Shown: in pieces, positions 51,801 through 57,800 of the stretch | Position numbering within the stretch: the stretch's first letter is position 1 | Layout of the letters: each line of letters starts with the position of its first letter | Origin: Lota lota | Taxonomy: Eukaryota; Chordata; Actinopteri; Gadiformes; Lotidae | Assembly: GCA_026745465.1 (NCBI GenBank) | Contig: JACYXH010000310.1 | Span: forward strand, 5,806,001 to 5,870,000 | Direction of reading: 5' to 3' | Length of the DNA: 64,000 bases | Made by a program: the position numbers and the translations under genes | The notes under the pieces: generated by a model | What the model saw: only the letters and a program-made list of their open reading frames with translations | What the model was told of the DNA's origin: nothing | Database searches by the model: none

Positions 51801-54800
51801 AGTGAATACATCTTTCAACAGACCAATAATTCAAGTTCTATTTTTCTACAGAGAATGTATTATTGTCATAAAAAGTGATATTATTGCAATACACACAACA
51901 TGTACTATTGCATTCTTTAAATCATGCCAGTAACCTGGACATGTTTTTTAAAGTTAATTTATAAATAATGTGTAACCTCAAGTATTTTGGGAAGAATCTC
52001 TCTCAACACACTTTTGTCTCTGTGTGCTGATGTCAGGGGTTCCTAAAGATGAGCTGGAGGCTGCCATTGAGCTCAGTCTGCAAGAATCCCACACTGCCCA
52101 GGAGGAAGAACGGGAACTCACCAGGTACAAACCGATTATCCTCATGTATATCTGCCCTCTCCTCTTAACGGTTAGCATCCATGAATGGCAGCCTATGGGC
52201 CTTATTCACCTTTGGCGGCCATCTTGATTCTAAACGCTAGCTTAGCGGTGGGACTTACTGCAGAATTCCGGGTGAATAAGGCCCATAGCTGCCTTTCTCA
52301 CTCAACGTCTTTTCCCATGACACTCCAATCCAATGGAAATAATAGAGACATTACAGATTTTGACCCTGGTGGTTGCTAACCGTCGATGTATCCCAGAAAG
52401 GTGACACTCTTCTGAGTGATACTGACACTCAGTATAACACTTATGAGACGCCTATACGAACGTGACCGTAACTAAGCAAAGGTAATGCAATTGATCCACC
52501 TGATTGGTTCAAACAAATTTCTAATAAAAAAATGTGTGCTGTCTGACATCACCTGGCACCAATTTGAGCCAATCACCCTGAAGGTGAAGTCTTACCAGGT
52601 CAAAAGTAGTCGGGGGAAGTTGTGGGGCCTGGTGTTTGTTGGTGTTTGATCAGATGTGTCTGTGTCTGCCAGGGCTCTGGAGGCCAGTGCAGAGGAGAGC
52701 GGAGCTAGAGCCAAGAGGAAGAGATGCGAGGTCCCGAGCGAAGCATGCAGCCCCACAGACTGGATCCGCCAGGAGGACTGGCCCGTGGGCATCCGCAACG
52801 TGGGGAACACCTGTTGGTTCAGCGCTGTTATCCAGGTAGGAACACAGGGATGGAGAGCAGGGATGTGAATGTATTAGTGATGAGACTCGGTGATACCACG
52901 CCATAGTGAATCCCCGATATACATTTGACATTAATCATCATCCTGTCTCAAAACCTACATTTCTAACGCTAGTTCTTATTCCACCTGTTTTAAACAGCTT
53001 GTTCTCCAACATAAACAACAGAATAGGTTGTTTGTCAATACGAACAAGCACCACCCATATGACTGTTCGCTGGTCCAGTGCCCCTATTGGCTGGTTGAAG
53101 AAACCAGAAATATGTCAATGTTGTCACTGAACGATGATTATGAAAATTCAATGCAAATTTCTTGCTAGAAATGTGATCAAAACAAAAACTAAACGACCTA
53201 TGAGGTCATATACTGTATGTTGGAGATCACGTTGGTTTAGATGCGCTTGGTCCACACGGAACCTGGAACACAGAAATCTGTAGTGTACAGTAAGAACTAT
53301 ATGCATCCAAAGGATCTCTATCCACTTCATGACAGTCTGGTTAGAGCTACTGATAAAGCATGTTGAGGATTTTCCCAATGAAAATATGAGGGGCTTCACG
53401 TCTGCGGCTAAACTCTATTAAAAGTCCATCCCAGACTAACAATTTAGTCAGGCTTATCGATTGGCTTTGCAGCAACCTGAGCCCTCATCAAAGTGTGCAG
53501 GCTGTAGAGATAATTAAATAGCGTGGTGTTGCTATGATGGGGAGACCAATAGGCCTTTTCAGTCCTAGAATGGGAATGAGCATCAGTGCCTCTGTTGATT
53601 AGCAAAGAGGAGAGGGTATGTTTGTATGCTTGTCTGTGTTTTGGTCTAGAATATTTGCTCGCATAACTGAATGCCCCCATATAGTATACAACCATTATCT
53701 AGGAACGGGAATGGGCAAATTTAATAGTATATTCTGAAATGCAAAAAGCTCTTAGATGTTATCCCGTTTTGCTTTCATTCGTTTATTTGTGTGTTTATGT
53801 TTTTATTAATGTTACTGTTTTTGTTACTGTGTGCATTTGGTGTTAATGCCATTTGTTTGAATTTGTATCCATTACAATACCAATCTCAAATTTGGTTTAA
53901 ATCAACTAGCCTATCAGAGTGATGCAAAGCGACCGCCCGACTCCGCTGGGTGGGCTCAAATATCCCGTGTTATCTTTTGTGGTGCCAATAACAGTAAGAT
54001 GGAAAGAGTGGTAATTGTATTAGATGGGATTGGAGATGGAAAGTCAGTACATAAAGGTATTCACAGAGGCTTATGAGCTTAACATACTACATGACACATA
54101 AGACTAATTGGTGCATTAAACACTGTATCACTGTCAGAGCCCTGCCGGTATTTCCATGCTGTATCACGTCACTTTGTCTGGTTGAGCTACCATTTTCATT
54201 TGGGAATTAAACGATTTCATTTTAGAGTGCCTTGGACAATTTTCTTCCCCCTTTCAATATACTTTTCATCCCATAGAAAAACGTATCTCCTGAGCACTTG
54301 AACACTTCTGTTTATTTTAAACACTGAAATCAAGACTTGCACAATGTACTTTTCCATTCAAATTTCCATTCGATTTTCATTGAATGGAAATTACCATTAG
54401 ATTTTTTACCTTTCTCTTGTAGTCCTTGTTCCATCTGCCTGAATTCCGGAGACTGGTACTCAACTACTGTATCTCCGAGCGTGTACTGGAGAAGTGTAAG
54501 ACCAACTCAGTAAGTATGCAGTGGTGTTAAGGTACAAGCCAGTTGCCAGAAGTTTCGTTGACATTGAACGTTTCTGTGTAGGGTATAATACAGGTCAAAG
54601 GCTTCCTAATGCCTCATTTTATCCATAATATTTCTCTCCCTCCCTCTCTCTCTCTCTCTCTTTCTCTCTCTCTCTCTCTCTCTCTCTCTCTCTCTCTCTC
54701 TCTCTCTCTCTCTCTCTCTCTCTCTCTCTCTCTCTCTCTCTCTCTCTCTCTCTCTCTCTCTCTCTCTCTCCCTCTCTCCATCTCTCTGTTGTCTTTCATT

Positions 54801-57800
54801 CGCTCTTCAGTAATCTCTCTTCTCTCTCTCTTTCTCTCGACATCTCTTATAATTATTTAATTTTATAATTTATTATTCACATTTTTTATTACTCTTTATT
54901 TTTCTAATTTCTTCTCAAGATTGTTTTTAGATCATGGCTATGTCACAGAACTAAACTTTTCCGACACTCTCACATATAGAAATTTTAAGTGTCTGCTGGA
55001 CTTGCATGTGTGACAACATTCTATTATAACAAGATAGGGTATGAGAATGTTATTTTTTAATTAGCTCTCACTTAGCAAGTTTGTAGACCTACCTCTCGTA
55101 ACTCATCTATCTCACACAAACCAGTTGAGAGAGTCAGTGTTGTGTCTGTGTTTTGGATCTCCAAGTGAGTGAGTGGTGAACATTTGTTTCATATGTTGGC
55201 TCTCTCTTATTTTTTACAGGACAATAAACCTTGTACATCCATATTCTGCTATACCTTACCTTAATAGACCCTCACAATCCTCTCTGCTACTAACCTCAAT
55301 AATTCAAATATGTATTGCTAAATGTGGATTAGTGTGTATTTACAAATCACACATATACCGTCTTTATTTTGTTGTCAATATAGGGTGATTTCGATTTTTG
55401 TGTATCAATTTCTCATTCTCTTTGCTCTTGATGTGGAAAGCTCTCAATCTTATATTGTAGCACAATGTAATTACGCTCAATAATGTATTAGATGTATTCA
55501 CACACAGTACCCCTTTAAACGGTTGTTGACACAATGATTGAAAATCATTTTCCCAGAGCTTATTGTGCCATATGCTTTCAGTGTCTGGAGTTAATAAACT
55601 GTTGGACTGGCTGGGATGCCTTGTGACGGCCACTGGATTAAGTGGAAACAGTTATGCATTCATTATTATTAATTGGTTTGTCTGCATTTCTTGATAGGGA
55701 TATGGTAATGGTAGTGGTATTGATATCTGATTAGAGAACTACGTTGTTTTGCTCAGGACCCAGGAAGACAAGAAAAAAAATCCCATGGTCCAACTTTTCT
55801 ATGGAAACTTCGTGACAGAGAGAAAACATGAAGGTATATATTTTGGGGTTTTCTGTCCTATATTTGACAATCTGTTTGATCACCTACGGTATAAGCCTAT
55901 ATTTATACAATTATTTTTCAATGCAGGCAAGACATTGTCCAACATCGAGCAGTTTGGGCAATACCCCCTGCAAGTGAATGGTTTTAACAACCTGGACGAG
56001 TGTCTAGAAGGTGCCATGGTAGAGAGAGAGATTGAATCGCTGCATTCGGATCAACCCATCACATCTGGCCGAGAGGTAAACCAAAATAATATTCAAATTG
56101 TCATTATATCTTCATTTATTCATTTTGTGTTTATTCATCAATCGATTCTTAAGGTTTCATTTCTATTTCTATTTCTATTTCTATAATGTGTGCTATCTTT
56201 TTCAGAGATGGTTTTCAAAGCTGCCACCCGTGTTGACCTTTGAACTGTCTAGATTTGAGTTTAACGCCCAGCTTGGACGCCCCGAGAAGATACACAAGAA
56301 ACTGGAATTCCCACAAGTCATTTACATGGATAGGTAAGGTTCAGGCGACACCGTCAGAGATAGTTTTTCACATTCTTGTTAACTTAAAGGTACAATATGT
56401 AACAAATGTATTAAATCATAAAATTACCATGAAATGTCGTCAGATATTAAGGAAACATGAAACAAGTTGAAATACTGTCTTCTCTGACAACAAAACTACA
56501 GCAAGTATTTTCTCCTGTGGAGGAGGAGGCGGAGACAACTCTCTCAAATATTGTGAATTTAGACTGCAGTACACATATTGTACCTTTAAGTACCATTAAG
56601 TCCATTCAGTTCTGCAATACAATCTTTTTTAGGAAAGGGACTTTAGTAGGAAGTAATAGGAATGAATATAATTCTGAATAAATAGTGAGGAGAATTATGT
56701 TTCTATGTATCAGAAAATACATATTTAAAAAGTATGTGATTGCTTCCAATCATTTCTATGGGTAAAAAAGATAGACAAAATATTGTCAACAATAACTGTC
56801 AATTGACAATGACATACATTTCTCCATTTGCAGAAAGGTCTGGAAACAAATTTTGCTTTAACTGTGTATGGCTCTGCTTCCAAAACAAATCTCAATGCCG
56901 GTTGTTTTTGTCCACAGGTATCTTCACAAAAACATAGCGAAGACCCACGGGAGGAGGGGCGAGGTGAAGAGACTGAAAGAGCAGCTCGCCACCCTTCAGC
57001 AGAAACTTGAGTGGTACGTGTGGACACCTGAGAGTGAAGACAACACTTCAGCACTGGCCTTAAGTGTAGCTCTACCGCTACACATAGTATTAATAGACTT
57101 ATGCTCAGTTACTGTTTAAATTCGGAGATCCACCTCAGTTCTTTTTTTGGACTTCAAAGGTTAAACGAAAAAATATATATATATTAAGTTCATATGAAAG
57201 GAAAACTATTCGATGATCAAAAGTCAGAGTTTAAATATCGTTTTTTATTTAGCAGTGAACAACTATGACTGCCCTAAAACATTTTTCTTGAATTCTAATA
57301 CAAACATAAAATTAAAACTTCTGCCAGAAACAGGTCATTTTCCTCAGTAAACCTAAATTAAATGGTGTGTCCAAGTAAAACAGCAATTGTTTTTCCCAAT
57401 CTCTTCATTGCCGACACTTCTTGCTCATAAATCAAGTCAAGGCTGCATTTCCCTCCTTGCCCCAGTTTCTGTAGTCCACAACTTGAATCTACAAATCTAA
57501 ACGCATCTCTTTCCAATTGACAGTTACAAGAACTACGGCTCGGGGCCGGTGAAGTATCCCCTGGCAGACATGTTGCAGTTTGTGCTGGAGTTCGCCACCA
57601 CCAAACCGTCTAGCGCATCCCAAGCAGAGGACTCCAGGAGCGCCTGTTCCTCGGCAACGCCTCCCCCTAGCGACCAACCGGCGGAGTCCGCGTCAGAGGA
57701 TGGGAGGTAAGGACGACAAAGGGTAGTGTAACATCACATGTATGGGTGTTCTCCTTATGGCAGTTCTGTTGGATTGTGAACGTGAAGTCCTCGTTCCAAG

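Follow-up and report, generated by a model that had tools for sequence, protein, structure and literature searches.

The usp28 gene in the Lota lota assembly GCA_026745465.1 raises the question of whether this deubiquitinase has truly lost part of its protease core, or whether the gap lies in the assembled sequence. The window analysed here is a stretch of 64,000 nucleotides (nt) of contig JACYXH010000310.1 (C310; positions 5,806,001–5,870,000; assembly of 575 Mb in 867 contigs), in which usp28 occupies the forward strand from position 50991 onward and runs past the window end. In human USP28, 71 residues (EKRN..VNVN) separate the SLFQLPEF exon from the NPMVQLFYG exon, and a preliminary description of this DNA had reported the exons for this segment, with the QDVSEF box, as missing. 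We consider it probable, at roughly three chances in four, that the gap is a local assembly artefact and not a true enzyme loss, a reading drawn from the assembled sequence and centred on the following features.

54423–54509, + strand: usp28 exon before the gap, ending in phase 0 with donor gtaagt (tblastn E 2e-9)
54633–54838, + strand: (TC)n tract within the interval in question, its 3' end degenerate (Tandem Repeats Finder)
54840–55578, + strand: expected place of the exon EKRN..SSEEQQ (138 bp in usp25), with no significant trace
55579–55631, + strand: damaged copy of the exon QDVSEFTHKLLDWLEDAFQ.. (protein-guided search and alignment of usp25 exon DNA)
55757–55833, + strand: usp28 NPMV exon with a phase-2 acceptor at 55757; the in-frame acceptor at 55764 is in phase 0

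The missing segment was sought with human USP28 and USP25 query segments that agree letter for letter with the chains in PDB. Among the matches listed (at most four per query), permissive tblastn returned no clean exon for the 71 residues on either strand of the 64 kb, and three control exons were detected at E values of 2e-9, 2e-7 and 6e-18. The preliminary description was thus right that no readable exon is present, and also that the flanking exons are intact, since 54423–54509 and 55757/55764–55833 are open and bounded by AG and GT. Its further claim that the QDVSEF box is absent altogether was not confirmed: tblastn yielded a seven-residue trace, NKLLDWL, at 55593–55613, and both a protein-guided search and usp25 DNA place a damaged copy of the exon at 55579–55631. 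Of the QDVSEF box and the helices that precede it, usp28 retains the QDVSEF exon in damaged form only, and the preceding exon was not found in the interval.

To compare the interval with a close relative from the same genome, the core exons of usp25 were taken from one stretch (L038) of the 20 further ones fetched among 103 matches listed; the loci of the Pfam search contained no more of usp25 than its His-box portion (L019), and the Cys-box exon of usp25 lies outside L038. Where seen, exon order and intron phases are the same in both genes. The usp25 exons are clean, comprising 138 bp (EHRN..SSESQQ), 77 bp (QDVSEF) and 74 bp (EGEKPKNPMV..), whereas in usp28 the QDVSEF exon is damaged and the upstream one is without significant trace; the usp28 NPMV exon, at 77 bp, is one codon longer than its 74-bp counterpart. 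The usp25 QDVSEF exon begins CAG GAT GTG and ends in phase 2, and the acceptor of its NPMV exon is likewise in phase 2. Both genes are located on contig C310, usp25 at ~2.33–2.34 Mb and usp28 at 5.86 Mb, ~3.5 Mb apart.

Alignment of the usp25 QDVSEF exon DNA to the usp28 interval gave a score of 46 at 55579–55631, which was reached by none of 300 shuffles (maximum 31) and by none of 528 tiles cut from elsewhere in the same genome, with five usp25/usp28 loci excluded (maximum 40); with stiff gap costs the score was 37, while the 528 tiles did not exceed 31. In the lenient alignment 47 of 53 aligned columns are identical, and all seven gaps represent bases missing from usp28 (13 nt), with no extra base on the usp28 side. 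Five of the six mismatches are synonymous by hand reading. Under the same lenient scoring, the gaps nearly cancel in four of five intact exon pairs (net 3, 0, 0 and 0 nt). Gap count alone was rejected as a sign of damage; because lenient scoring opens gaps in intact exons as well, the argument relies on the one-sidedness of the gaps and on the comparison of error models.

For the latter, a protein-to-DNA alignment permitting insertions, deletions and substitutions was written, with residue probabilities calibrated on the intact exons (the window is identical at 126 of the 156 positions at which human USP28 and USP25 agree). The calibrated search placed its best match in the window, on both strands, at 55596–55620 with a score of 19.7, the next place scoring 13.1 and none of 200 dinucleotide shuffles exceeding 13.6. 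The undamaged core is short, consisting of KLLDWL (18 nt) followed, past a 2-nt gap, by GATGCC; tttcag stands at the 5' edge of the damaged exon, where acceptor and first codon are not distinguishable. When the 18 residues DVSEFTHKLLDWLEDAFQ were forced onto 55581–55627, a model with 10% insertions and deletions (indels) scored 15.4 and a mixed model 10.8, compared to 0.1 for the no-error model and 4.8, 4.0 and 2.4 for substitution models at 10, 20 and 30%. The indel model thus stands 15 nats above the clean model and 10.6 above the best-scoring model of substitution decay, and none of 200 shuffles reaches 15.4 under it (maximum 4.1). Damage of the sequencing-error type, with indels and not substitutions, is accordingly favoured by 10.6 nats in the forced alignment, compared to 2.7 nats in the local one. 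The same scoring was applied as a control to 34 tiles, each 18 residues long, taken from intact catalytic exons: the clean model was best in 26, while in the remaining eight a model with 5–10% indels or 10% substitutions won by at most 2.8 nats, six of these tiles crossing an exon junction and two lying in variable stretches, as read by hand.

The open surrounding exons, the one-sided gaps of the damaged exon and the clean usp25 counterparts are direct observations. An exon released from selection gathers mainly substitutions; since neutral decay would leave mostly such changes, and the codons here are conserved while their spacing is broken, consensus error is the likelier origin of the damage. 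We infer that the deletions arose in the consensus, through poor read support or failed polishing near the TC tract, and not in the germline. The stretch from the (TC)n tract to ~55640 would then be a low-accuracy assembly patch, in which the assembled QDVSEF exon is short of about one fifth of its bases through scattered small deletions and the exon upstream of it has been lost or become unrecognisable; the real genome would very probably have an undamaged usp28 that includes the two core exons. The presence of the (TC)n tract at 54633–54838 makes the place a plausible one for assembly error. The preliminary description had correctly noted the tract and pointed to a possible collapse; a simple collapse does not fit, however, as the damaged exon survives ~740 bp beyond it.

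Errors of this kind have precedents. According to part of the Vertebrate Genomes Project paper (PMC8081667), short indels in long-read consensus leave frameshifts where polishing failed; missing exons are named among the commonest false losses of earlier vertebrate assemblies in a section of PMC9516821; and a passage of PMC9186530 describes dropout of HiFi coverage at GA-rich sequence. As far as these portions of PMC8081667 and PMC9516821 go, the usp28 case resembles the published false losses and frameshift errors in its missing exon, its apparent consensus indels and its otherwise intact gene, and differs from them in that it is judged from assembled sequence alone. No second copy of 54840–55757 was found in the assembly by a search that skipped simple repeats and very common words. 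Likewise, no repeat copies of the interval were found on which errors could be counted, the best match in the pool being the usp25 exon itself (E 0.073).

A number of results weigh against an assembly error, or limit what the alignments can carry. The exon upstream of QDVSEF left no significant trace in 54840–55578, and the best match of its usp25 DNA in the interval was at chance level (equalled by 219 of 300 shuffles and by 475 and 273 of 528 tiles). In simulations, an upstream exon damaged to the level of the QDVSEF exon (about one fifth of bases deleted) would be found in 91–99 of 100 cases, with detection falling to 73 of 100 at 27% loss and 28 of 100 at 33% loss. Because the simulations mostly recover the exon at that level, it must have been deleted or worse damaged; one uniform error rate for both exons is not supported, and to explain the two together either more sequence must have been deleted locally or the error rate must change steeply. 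The homopolymer and composition profile, tried as a sign of raw-read consensus, gave nothing, the interval lying within ~1.6 standard deviations of other tiles. Stiff gap costs reduce the aligned part to 27 bases of the window, and one 2-nt gap is still required. Locally, a single 2-nt gap suffices to fit the damaged exon (21.3 with indels, 20.7 at no more than 1% indels, 18.6 at 10% or more substitutions), so that indels gain only 0.6 nats over the nearly indel-free fit and 2.7 over the substitution-rich one. The deletion-only pattern rests on homology of the flanks and on an 18-residue stretch that was picked after the match was known, and the forced score under the no-error model was equalled by one of 200 shuffles. 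Without calibration, the indel-tolerant search also ranked the site first in the window, unreached by 200 shuffles, by the narrow margin of 9.5 to 8.9. The controls are imperfect in turn: the best clean placement fell off the exon in four of the 34 tiles, and the fifth intact pair, exon 55757–55833, was placed at the wrong site in L038, its true usp25 partner scoring only 29.

Two candidate traces of the upstream exon were dropped. KFVD at 55077–55096, the best of them and at most borderline, was reached by 5–16 of 200 and 11–24 of 200 shuffles and was outscored by other places in the window, and a trace at 55394–55456 was weaker still.

The rest of the gene bears on whether such a break could be real, and its exons and C-terminal pieces outside the disputed interval are given below.

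50991–51065, 51539–51653, 52037–52124 and 52673–52835, + strand: usp28 exons of the UBA/UIM part and the catalytic Cys box, open, AG/GT, with matches to USP28/USP25 chains in PDB and to Pfam
55927–56075, 56206–56333, 56918–57013 and 57524–57706, + strand: usp28 exons after the NPMV exon, open, AG/GT
58055–58263, 58982–59052 and 60025–60253, + strand: later modelled usp28 exons, open, AG/GT
60902–63586, + strand: usp28 C-terminal pieces in the window (tblastn, human USP28 C terminus)

The model comprises 13 exons and starts after the first coding exon with the start codon, which it leaves out. AG precedes and GT follows all 13, and the frame is open across them when the exon start at 55764 is joined to the exon end at 54509. 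The catalytic Cys box and the His box (GHYWAYIYD, in the group of exons from 55927 to 60253) both lie in open exons. Translated together, the exons give a protein of 554 residues that aligns to chains of human USP25 (best E 4.5e-178) and human USP28 (best E 2.9e-163), and in the catalytic domains of PDB entries 6HEJ, 8P14, 5O71 and 6HEL (E from 1.8e-114 for 8P14 to 4.5e-178 for 5O71) both sides of the gap are matched, while ~71 residues lack a clean counterpart in the window. Pfam UCH is matched, as is USP_UIM_N (27.5 bits; cut-off 27), and UBA_8 reaches 22.7 bits, under its cut-off of 26 (E 8e-5); the N terminus thus carries the UBA and UIM motifs that mark the USP28/USP25 deubiquitinases of peptidase family C19. 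The C-terminal region of USP28 is represented by nine tblastn pieces in the window and the stretch downstream, the last reaching the human C terminus and being followed by a stop codon beyond the window end; residues 15–30 and 60–130 of the 438-residue human query had no match. Within the open reading frame of this C-terminal part, an 18-bp tandem repeat at 61085–61128 (2.4 copies, 100% matches) encodes GSGAGP units.

A real and recent germline deletion in this individual or in the species, in which the upstream exon is gone and the QDVSEF exon broken so that a protease-dead protein or a pseudogene results, would account directly for an upstream exon without significant trace, and it agrees with a window that contains no N and an interval for which no other match was found in the assembly. 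We regard it as unlikely, however, since the forced alignment contains deletions and almost no amino-acid-changing substitutions, the reverse of neutral decay. Furthermore, all 13 modelled exons, including the Cys and His boxes, are open and the coding sequence ends in a stop codon where the human protein ends, while the skipped form should be no active USP, so that relaxed selection would be expected elsewhere in the gene. The stricter version of such a loss, a biologically meaningful and very recent break of the protease core in a gene whose remainder is still constrained, appears more doubtful again; if true, usp25 would be the only one of the two paralogues still active, or usp28 would persist as a scaffold without catalysis. 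Of the two options in the preliminary description, a deletion in the assembly and a genuine loss of the protease function, the evidence favours the side of assembly error.

The match at 55579–55631 might itself be due to chance, both exons being absent through a collapse or deletion at the (TC)n tract. The shortness of the undamaged core, the 27 bases aligned under stiff gap costs and the narrow separation in the uncalibrated search all lend this something, but its score was unreached in the 200 shuffles of the calibrated search, in the 200 of the indel models, in the 300 of the usp25 DNA alignment and in the 528 tiles. As interval and strand are also the expected ones, and tttcag borders the site on its 5' side, coincidence seems quite improbable. 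That the exons reside elsewhere in the assembly, following an inversion or translocation or on a separate contig, is hardly credible: no supporting point was found, and no clean copy was listed on either strand of the 64 kb, the search having covered the window.

If an assembly error is accepted, a gene predictor would be expected to skip both core exons and might use an acceptor close by that keeps the frame. The preliminary description had observed that the exons join in frame via 55764, and indeed that acceptor is in frame with the exon end at 54509 (phase 0); it was rejected as the true exon start, since the phase-2 acceptor of usp25, six codons before NPMV, is matched by the phase-2 acceptor of usp28 at 55757, seven codons before it. 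Because a direct join of 54509 to 55757 is out of frame, the in-frame skip requires the non-conserved acceptor 55764, and only if that acceptor is used would a predicted protein look normal, as had been claimed.

A protein without the 71-residue segment should be inactive as a protease. Counting from C171 gives the phenylalanine of QDVSEF the number 259 in human USP28. In the part of PMC6509359 that deals with it, Phe259/Phe266 in helix alpha5 is described as belonging to the core and as connected with the catalytic cysteine, and the numbering printed there assigns 259 to USP25 and 266 to USP28, the reverse of the count made here; the QDVSEF phenylalanine is probably this alpha5 residue. No report of a loss of these usp28 exons in fish was found among the literature titles listed. 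Taken at face value, the assembly would signal a natural loss of USP28 protease activity, in a gene of interest for cancer and p53, and recognition of the damaged exon averts a false call of this kind; were the loss real, nature would here have uncoupled what USP28 does as a scaffold from what it does as a protease.

Upstream of usp28, the window contains the following genes and open reading frames (ORFs), identified by ORF reading.

10755–11252 and 16653–17093, + strand: C2H2 zinc-finger ORFs
~32778–46967, - strand: two htr3-like genes

Three queries made of htr3 exons, of which two come from the second htr3-like gene of the window, each match both htr3-like genes without interruption. The order of C2H2 zinc-finger ORFs, htr3-like pair and usp28 resembles the human 11q23 block of ZBTB16, the HTR3 pair and USP28. 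Additionally, long (GA/TC) and (CA/GT) arrays are numerous in the window (2151–2267, 5783–5936, 17529–17635, 24319–24433, 29063–29191 and others); two of the long arrays are perfect, over 154 and 115 bp, and the (TC)n tract of the usp28 intron belongs to this wider set.

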